Shown piece after piece: positions 24,947 through 27,000 of a stretch of DNA of 64,000 nucleotides. The first letter of the stretch is position 1. Every line of letters starts with the position of its first letter. The position numbers and the translations under genes were made by a program. Below the pieces are notes generated by a model. It saw nothing but the letters and a program-made list of their open reading frames with translations, ran no database searches and had not been told where the DNA came from. The DNA comes from Deltaproteobacteria bacterium (GTDB lineage Bacteria > Myxococcota_A > UBA796 > GCA-2862545), in contig SBGP01000092.1 of NCBI GenBank assembly GCA_006226595.1, positions 124,001-188,000 on the forward strand, read 5' to 3'.

Positions 24947-26299
24947 TCAGCGCGGCACGACCCGCATGCGCAGGCCGTGCTTCGGGCGCAGGGTCACGCT
25001 CGGATCGAGCACCGGTGCCTCGCCGGGAATCGCCTCGACCCGGTACTTCTGGAGAAGCACCGCGAGCACCGACATCGCCTCCATGATCGCGAAGCGGTCG
25101 CCGATGCACTTGCGGCTGCCCGCCGAGAACGGGAAGTACGCCTGCTTCGGGCGCCCCTCGCTGCGCTCGGGCAGGAACCGGTCGGGGTCGAAGCCCTCGG
25201 GGTTCTCCCAGTACTGCGGGCTGCGGTGGGTCGCGTAGGGCGACAGGAACACGAGCGTGCCCTTGGGCACGGCGTAGCCGCCGAGGGTGGTCTCTTCCTC
25301 GACCATGCGGCCGAGCATCCACACCGGCGGGTACAGGCGCATGGACTCGTCGAGCACGCGTCGCAGCACCTGCAGGCGGCCCATGTCCGCCATGGTCATC
25401 GGACGGCCGCCGAGCACCGCGTCGAGCTCCTCCTCGACCCGCCGCGCCCACACCGGGTGCAGCGAGAGGCAGTACAGCGTCCACGTGAGCGCGTTCGCGG
25501 TGGTCTCGTGGCCCGCCGAGAGCATGGTGACGAGCTCGTCGCGCAGCTCGCGATCGGTCATCGGGTTCTCTTCGGCATCGGCGGCCTCGAGCAGCATCTC
25601 GAGCAGGTCGTGGTGCTCGGCGTCGGAGGCCCGGCGCTCGCGCACGATGTCGCCGACCACGCGGTCCAGCGTGCGAATGCCAGCCCAGAACCGCGCATTG
25701 CCCGGCGTCGGCCAGTACTCGACGAACGGCAGCGGAGTCGACACCAGGTGGTTGAACTGCGACAGCGCCCCCTCCATCGCCTTGCCAATCGCCTCGGTCT
25801 CCGACTCGACCTCGGTGGAGAAGAAGGTGCGGCACGCGATGTCGAGGGTGAGCGCCATCATGTCGTGGGCCACGTCCCGCTCGCCCTCCCAACCCTCGGC
25901 GAGCTGGACGGTGGATGCGTTCATCGTGCCGAGAAAGCCCTCGATGCGCTGCTTGCGGAACGCCGGGTTGGCGATGCGACGACGGCGCTTCCAGGTCTCG
26001 CCCTCGCTGGTGACGAGGCCCTCGCCGAGGATCAGCCGCAGCTTGTCGTAGCCGCGGGTGGCCTTGGAGTAGCTGTGGGCATCGGCCCGCAGCACCCGGT
26101 CGACATCCTCGGGGTCGAAGGCGAACCACGCCTCCATGGGCCCGAGGCGCCCCCGCGCCACGGGACCGCACTGCCGATGAGCCGAGAGCAGCATCGCGAT
26201 GGGATCCGCTCCGAAGGCTCCGGTCACGCCGAGAGGATGCCCGGCGTCGAAGGTGGGCGGACGCGTGGTGTGGCCGAGGGTCGGAGCGAGGGCGGTCAT
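24947..26299 (-). CDS. Cytochrome P450 monooxygenase
   Basis: 450 residues, ATG after GGAGG. Hallmarks: I-helix AGHETT (about 261), ESMR (the ExxR motif), 'FDPDRFLPER', and the heme loop FSAGSRKCIG with the thiolate Cys near 395. Such enzymes insert one oxygen atom into an organic substrate using electrons from a separate reductase, none of which is seen nearby. No membrane anchor, so soluble as in most bacteria. It is transcribed away from a TetR-family gene across three regularly spaced operator-like repeats, so it is probably repressed until a ligand appears. Confidence 0.93.
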   Translation of the reverse strand: MTALAPTLGHTTRPPTFDAGHPLGVTGAFGADPIAMLLSAHRQCGPVARGRLGPMEAWFAFDPEDVDRVLRADAHSYSKATRGYDKLRLILGEGLVTSEGETWKRRRRIANPAFRKQRIEGFLGTMNASTVQLAEGWEGERDVAHDMMALTLDIACRTFFSTEVESETEAIGKAMEGALSQFNHLVSTPLPFVEYWPTPGNARFWAGIRTLDRVVGDIVRERRASDAEHHDLLEMLLEAADAEENPMTDRELRDELVTMLSAGHETTANALTWTLYCLSLHPVWARRVEEELDAVLGGRPMTMADMGRLQVLRRVLDESMRLYPPVWMLGRMVEEETTLGGYAVPKGTLVFLSPYATHRSPQYWENPEGFDPDRFLPERSEGRPKQAYFPFSAGSRKCIGDRFAIMEAMSVLAVLLQKYRVEAIPGEAPVLDPSVTLRPKHGLRMRVVPR

Positions 26300-26315
26300 G
26301 GTGCCTCCGAGGACG

Positions 26316-26377
26316 TGAGCGATGACTCGCGTTAGAATGTGAGCAACTACTCAAGTAATAGTGTGAGCACTAGCTCA
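26316..26377. promoter_or_regulatory. Three tandem operators TGAG-N6-CTCA with 24-bp spacing
   Basis: TGAG-N6-CTCg at 26316-26329, TGAG-N6-CTCA at 26340-26353 and TGAG-N6-CTCA at 26364-26377 start exactly 24 bases apart. They lie between the divergent P450 and TetR-family genes. A wider inverted repeat, GAATGTGAGC (26335-26344) and GCTCACATTC (26373-26382), frames the last two. The neighbouring TetR-type protein is the likely binder. Confidence 0.65.
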
Positions 26378-26406
26378 CATTCCACTCGCATTCGCAGGAG
26401 GACCCC

Positions 26407-27000
26407 TTGGAGGCCCGCAAACAGCCAAAGCAGGCGCGATCCAGAGCCACGGTGGAGGCGATTCTCGAGGCCACTGCTCGCGTTCTCGTCGAGGACGGCT
26501 ACGACGCCCTGTCCACGAACCGGGTCGCCAAGGTCGCCGGCGTGTCGATCGGCTCGCTGTACCAGTACTTCCCGAACAAGGAGTCCCTGGTCCTCGCCAT
26601 CGTCGAGCAACACACCGAAGAGATGATGGACATGCTCCGCAACGCGGTCACCGACCTCGCCCACGCGCCGCTGGACGTGGCGGTGCGCACCTACGTGCGA
26701 GCGATCATCGAGGCCCACACGGTGGACCCCGAGCTACACCGGGCCCTGATGATGCAGGTCATGCACATCGGCGTGGAGCTGATCGGCGGCATCAACAGCA
26801 CGGCCCGCCAGATCGTCGAGGGTTACCTGACCCTGCACCTCGACGAGCTCGCGATCACCGACGTGAAGACCGCTGCCTACGTGCTGGTGCACGCCGTGGA
26901 GGCGGTGAACCACGCCCACATCCTCGAGCCGGACCCGCCCGAGACGGAGCCGCTCATCGAGGAGGTGAGCCAGTTGGTGCTGCGCTACCTGAAGGGCTAG
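26407..27000 (+). CDS. TetR-family transcriptional regulator
   Basis: 197 residues from TTG, supported by AGGAGG five bases ahead. The N-terminal helix-turn-helix is typical: 'AILEATARVLVEDGYDALSTNRVAKVAGVSIGSLYQYFPNKESL' positions the recognition helix at about 33-50. The C-terminal 140 residues are the ligand-binding and dimerisation helices. TetR proteins act as dimers that leave DNA when ligand binds. The divergent P450 and the three operators between them are its likely targets, including its own promoter. Its TAG stop shares CTAG with the convergent sigma-factor gene. Confidence 0.9.
   Translation: MEARKQPKQARSRATVEAILEATARVLVEDGYDALSTNRVAKVAGVSIGSLYQYFPNKESLVLAIVEQHTEEMMDMLRNAVTDLAHAPLDVAVRTYVRAIIEAHTVDPELHRALMMQVMHIGVELIGGINSTARQIVEGYLTLHLDELAITDVKTAAYVLVHAVEAVNHAHILEPDPPETEPLIEEVSQLVLRYLKG

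Follow-up and report, generated by a model that had tools for sequence, protein, structure and literature searches.

A cytochrome P450 gene and a divergently transcribed TetR-family regulator gene share a short control region carrying three palindromic sites, which almost certainly serve the adjacent TetR as operators, as indicated by the conservation of the palindrome, far beyond chance, upstream of related tetR genes. Very likely, the TetR would bind these palindromes to control both genes, a ligand would release it, and the third operator would have arisen by duplication of a 24-bp unit. The features lie as follows in the window, by which we mean the whole stretch of 64,000 nucleotides that was analysed.

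24947..26299, minus strand: cytochrome P450 gene, divergent from tetR (Pfam PF00067, 297.5 bits against a cut-off of 22.8, E 2.2e-88).
26304..26308, minus strand: GGAGG, probable ribosome-binding site of the P450 gene, judged from its sequence.
26316..26329, no strand assigned: site 1, predicted operator TGAGCGATGACTCG, weight-matrix score 17.1.
26333..26338, plus strand: TAGAAT, -10-like hexamer adjoining site 2, in a position conserved in relatives.
26340..26353, no strand assigned: site 2, predicted operator TGAGCAACTACTCA, probably an extra copy, weight-matrix score 15.8.
26357..26362, plus strand: AATAGT, -10-like hexamer adjoining site 3, in a position conserved in relatives.
26364..26377, no strand assigned: site 3, predicted operator TGAGCACTAGCTCA, the best copy, weight-matrix score 21.5.
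26384..26392, plus strand: ACTCGCATT, a lone same-sense half-site, separated by 11 bp from the right arm of the third site.
26396..26401, plus strand: AGGAGG, probable ribosome-binding site of tetR, likewise judged from its sequence.
26407..27000, plus strand: TetR-family regulator gene with a TTG start (Pfam PF00440 and PF17918).

As for the flanking genes, the regulator carries a TetR_N helix-turn-helix domain (PF00440) scoring 61.6 bits against a Pfam cut-off of 24, which places it in the TetR family, and a TetR_C_15 ligand-binding domain (PF17918) scoring 60.7 bits against a cut-off of 26.8. When compared with the model for ScbR-type gamma-butyrolactone receptors (NF041196), it scores 57.2 bits, below the NCBIfam cut-off of 150. 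The translated P450 contains the sequences FSAGSRKCIG and AGHETT, which we take to be the heme-loop and I-helix motifs, respectively. Its best NCBIfam match, albaflavenone monooxygenase (NF051859), reaches 311.1 bits, which is below the cut-off of 700. The start codons of the two genes are 107 bp apart. According to PMC3511530, when a TetR gene and its divergent neighbor are less than 200 bp apart, the TetR is usually the repressor of that neighbor, and enzymes are the commonest targets of such divergent TetRs. The 107-bp gap fits this rule, which favors repression of the divergent P450 gene.

The TGAG-N6-CTC(A/G) pattern begins at 26316, 26340, and 26364, in exact 24-bp steps between the P450 and TetR genes, just as an earlier reading of the sequence alone (hereafter the sequence-only reading) had reported. 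With 18 occurrences in the 64-kb window where 7.0 would be expected, isolated matches of this pattern carry little weight. The clustering of the sites, in turn, is beyond chance: in 20,000 rounds of dinucleotide shuffling, the intergenic DNA never contained even two of them. Site 3 extends into the longer palindrome TGTGAGC-ACTA-GCTCACA, while the core of site 1 is the same as that of the first operator in two related loci (L007 and L130). A 10-base inverted repeat, previously thought to frame the whole array, does exist, its arms being GAATGTGAGC (26335-26344) and GCTCACATTC (26373-26382), but it encloses only sites 2 and 3. It consists of the outer half-sites of these two sites and was rejected as a separate element. 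A terminator-like stem on the minus strand (26379-26362) was rejected as well, as it is the site-3 palindrome itself.

The evidence for a role of the sites as TetR operators comes from relatives of the adjacent TetR, which were sought in 141 genomes around the window's own and in a bacterial and archaeal species-genome collection, where the best 80 of 554 stretches encoding a relative were used. Of the 110 loci in this first set (L005-L114), 104 were kept, including the window; L016 and L086 were left out for having less than 150 bp of upstream DNA, and L041, L045, L048, and L057 for duplicate upstream DNA. The window's own locus (L005) is excluded from all counts out of 103 or 93 given below. 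Later searches covered 21 family, 63 order, and 377 phylum genomes, and a held-out set was formed from 19 later loci (L128-L146), reduced to 14 by removal of the duplicates L131, L133, L135, L143, and L146. Outside the genome of the window itself, the closest TetR is only ~56% identical, both among the best 80 of the 554 stretches and in the phylum search, and none above 56% was found in the 21 family, 63 order, and 377 phylum genomes. Loci are counted as having a P450 when a tblastn match falls anywhere in the fetched locus; in two of them (L051 and L089) the P450 is in the stretch but is not the divergent upstream neighbor.

Within 150 bp upstream of tetR, 37 of 103 relatives carry the exact 14-bp palindrome, while shuffled sequences yielded a mean of 0.27 and a maximum of 2. 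With up to one mismatch allowed, it is found in 63/103 relatives (shuffles: mean 5.9, maximum 13); for stretches that also encode a P450, the count is 26/30 (mean 1.8, maximum 5). A weight matrix, which was trained on the same loci on which it was counted, detected at least one site with a score of at least 8 in 94/103 relatives and at least two in 32/103, compared to 1.95 and 0 in shuffles. Inside genes, the same matrix found at least one match in 28/103 loci and two in 1/103. In view of this control and of the self-training, single lax matches are not all meaningful. When the threshold was raised to at least 10 in the held-out loci, 10 of 14 had at least one site, three had two, and four had none. 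The consensus that emerges is TGTGAGY-N4-RCTCACA, with a center favoring A/T. The sequence-only reading had made conservation in close relatives a condition of its proposal. The operator is indeed kept, but the third copy is not, as the same-genus locus L007 has two.

The palindrome is also found upstream of tetR genes whose divergent neighbor encodes a methyltransferase, a DinB, NmrA-like, or cupin protein, or something else, and the recognition helix of the TetR relatives is nearly invariant. The palindrome travels with the TetR and not with the P450, and the TetR clade appears to be one regulator type with interchangeable targets. In a TetR tree, which was built by a quick method and contains many weakly supported forks, the clade spans Myxococcota, Pseudomonadota, Acidobacteriota, and Cyanobacteriota, with P450 neighbors grouped mostly in Myxococcota. 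Twelve loci illustrate the variety of divergent partners (L015, L024, L042, L043, L046, L047, L052, L070, L077, L087, L111, and L112), which are enzymes or binding proteins (methyltransferases, DinB, NmrA-like, Coq4, cupin, and PEMT). A few taxonomic labels in this tree are questionable. The TetRs of L083 and L088, titled Bacillus subtilis SK6B4, fall within the Brucella/Ochrobactrum branch with 100% support, which probably reflects assembly contamination, while that of L099, titled Candidatus Gracilibacteria SU_1_2, lies among those of cyanobacterial Richelia, also with 100% support, and the contig is probably misbinned.

The position of the palindromes relative to the tetR promoter is conserved as well. 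A hexamer of the form NANNNT stands just before the tetR-nearest operator in 70/93 relatives and 7/10 held-out loci, while control positions gave 5.2 and 0.2, respectively. The commonest hexamer there is TATAAT in both sets. The conserved palindromes thus overlap the tetR promoter, as recognized from its -10-like box only, and the transcription start point would lie inside the operator. In the intergenic region of the window, we found no full sigma-70 match, and -35 boxes are not recognizable.

A model can be proposed on this basis. Each TGTGAGY-N4-RCTCACA palindrome would be bound by one TetR dimer. Because sites 2 and 3 directly follow the -10-like hexamers, dimers on these sites would cover the tetR start point. 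Site 1 starts 17 bp from the start codon of the P450 gene, whose beginning a dimer bound there would block. Release of the repressor would depend on a small molecule, probably the substrate or product of the P450. The basic layout is a pair of operators, ~24 bp apart, that flank a -10 box, and tandem duplication of a 24-bp unit would have generated three. Binding, repression, ligand release, and duplication are what we infer here, whereas the sites and their conservation with the TetR clade, the divergent P450 gene, and the -10-like box are directly observed.

The regular pitch raises the question of whether the three sites form a selected cooperative array, in which the fixed 24-bp spacing would itself be functional and produce a steep switch. 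The pitch is exactly 24+24, and spacings of 23-25 bp are the commonest in relatives with a P450. These relatives usually have one or two operators. Of the 39 P450-containing loci (window excluded), 17 have exactly two operators with a score of at least 10, separated by 23 (two loci), 24 (seven), 25 (four), 27 (one), 28 (two), or 33 bp (one). The spacing is thus 23-25 bp in 13/17, around a -10-like box. However, this box accounts for the spacing without any protein contacts, and 24+24 was seen in no other locus examined. The geometry is also unfavorable. The sequence-only reading had placed bound dimers on nearly the same DNA face, but 24 bp corresponds to 2.29 turns at 10.5 bp/turn, so that successive sites would be rotated by ~103 degrees. 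Together with the twelve operator pairs, mostly cyanobacterial, that are 21 bp apart in the group lacking a P450, the relatives' spacings (21, 23, 24, 25, 27, 28, and 33 bp) correspond to rotations from 0 to 240 degrees. The shared-face idea fails on both counts and was abandoned, and we regard a selected cooperative array as unlikely.

A duplication would explain the third copy. No second 24+24 array was found among the loci fetched in the family, order, and phylum searches, which included 17 of the phylum-search matches as new loci. One other locus (L035) also has three sites, but these are spaced 38 and 27 bp apart. In the same-genus L007, two operators lie 24 bp apart. The first is identical to site 1 of the window (14/14 bases), and the second is followed by CATTCCACTCGC, exactly as site 3 is in the window. 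The window hence resembles a two-operator promoter plus one 24-bp unit, and the third operator was probably gained in this lineage by tandem duplication of such a unit, composed of an operator and a -10-like box. If two operators are 24 bp apart, slippage or unequal exchange between them would produce just the observed pitch. Slippage of this sort offers a simple way in which a promoter could gain a third operator with the pitch unaltered. Since the three 24-bp units are only 14-16/24 identical to one another, the duplication must be old, if it happened; separate gain of a third site is possible instead.

If a duplication did occur, sites 1 and 3 might do all the work, with site 2 persisting as a leftover of little effect. 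Site 2 does have the lowest score of the three, and two-operator relatives match the window at site 1 and around site 3. Nevertheless, the TGAG-N6-CTCA core of site 2 is perfect and is shared in full (14/14 bases) with L021, in its second operator. The site thus shows no visible decay, and we consider it doubtful that it is idle.

We then turn to the scope of regulation. The scan for TGAG-N6-CTCA that was meant to define a regulon gave 33 matches in the 7.23-Mb genome, compared to 35 for a reversed control, and hence no regulon is indicated. Genome-wide, a longer degenerate form showed no excess (37 against 94 in the control), nor was there a meaningful one for TGTGAG-N6-CTCACA with up to two mismatches (69 against 58). 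Among the matches listed, best first, site 3 is the only one in the genome with zero or one mismatch to the latter pattern. As no pattern rises meaningfully above control, a local regulator is the simplest reading, and it is sound, at the level of sequence, to view this system as a fairly ordinary local autorepressor. That a regulator other than the adjacent TetR binds the sites is highly improbable: the genome holds many further regulators, but the motif stays upstream of the tetR clade across phyla, with unrelated neighbor genes, and is not enriched elsewhere in the genome.

Systems of this general kind are already known, as illustrated by PA3973, TetR, BkaR, and camR/camDCAB. CamR is a TetR-family repressor that is released by camphor. 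The system described here is like CamR in gene placement, with a repressor gene beside a P450, and unlike it in having no cam-type operon; PMC6352141 places the repressor gene beside the P450cam operon camDCAB. For PA3973 from Pseudomonas aeruginosa, PMC9736018 describes two 14-bp palindromes, 11 bp apart, around its own predicted -10, and >300 sites genome-wide by ChIP-seq. As in the window, the palindromes of PA3973 (25-bp pitch) flank the -10 of the regulator itself at a distance slightly exceeding two turns, but the motif is different and no regulon is indicated here. In the tetA-tetR region, the same paper (PMC9736018) cites two 15-bp operators with 11 bp between them. As in TetR/tetO, palindromic operators in a short divergent region would control both genes, although here the operator sequence is different, the target is a P450 instead of an efflux pump, and there are three operators. 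Mycobacterial BkaR, as presented in PMC3920632, is an autoregulated divergent TetR whose palindrome, GTTA-N-T-N4-A-N-TAAC, occurs twice in its promoter and which has a regulon of several genes. It is similar in being a divergent TetR with a repeated palindrome, but differs in its motif and in its regulon, none being indicated here. An autoregulated cyanobacterial TetR, PfsR of Synechocystis, is also described in the available section of PMC4092027, which gives no operator motif for it. In the available parts of PMC4070704 and PMC11784139, the motif letters are found in primers only, and both were rejected as motif precedents. A literature search in which subscription journals were thinly covered found no paper on this TetR clade and no TetR operator of the form TGTGAG-N6-CTCACA. 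As far as this search shows, the new details are the motif of the clade and its triple copy. This supplies a binding motif for a multi-phylum TetR clade in which a near-invariant recognition helix and operator are combined with changing divergent enzymes, among them P450s in many Myxococcota, and a defined motif makes tests of binding, inducer screens, and biosensor tests direct.

On the tetR side, the palindrome is accompanied by a second conserved element. An ACTCGC(A/G)TT half-site follows the tetR-nearest operator in 76/93 relatives and 8/10 held-out loci, at an offset of 13 bp in 55 of the 76 and six of the eight. Its mirror image on the far side is absent from all 93 relatives and all 10 held-out loci. 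When 58 loci were aligned on the 13-bp offset, CTC was invariant, the alignment being anchored on it, while the bases around it (A, G, C, T, and T) were constant at 86-98%. The half-site varies no more than the palindrome does. It is perhaps an autorepression or leader element. More tentatively, the element of the clade might be asymmetric, with an operator at the tetR start point and a half-site that tunes autorepression apart from repression of the divergent gene, a possibility that we find plausible and yet would not favor. If true, this asymmetric element would be combined in the window with a duplicated operator/-10 unit and, across a clade spread over several phyla, would serve a divergent enzyme gene that is interchangeable. 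Two loci of the same family (L011 and L012) keep the half-site without the standard palindrome, and L012 has the variant palindrome TGAGACTTTCGTCTCA.
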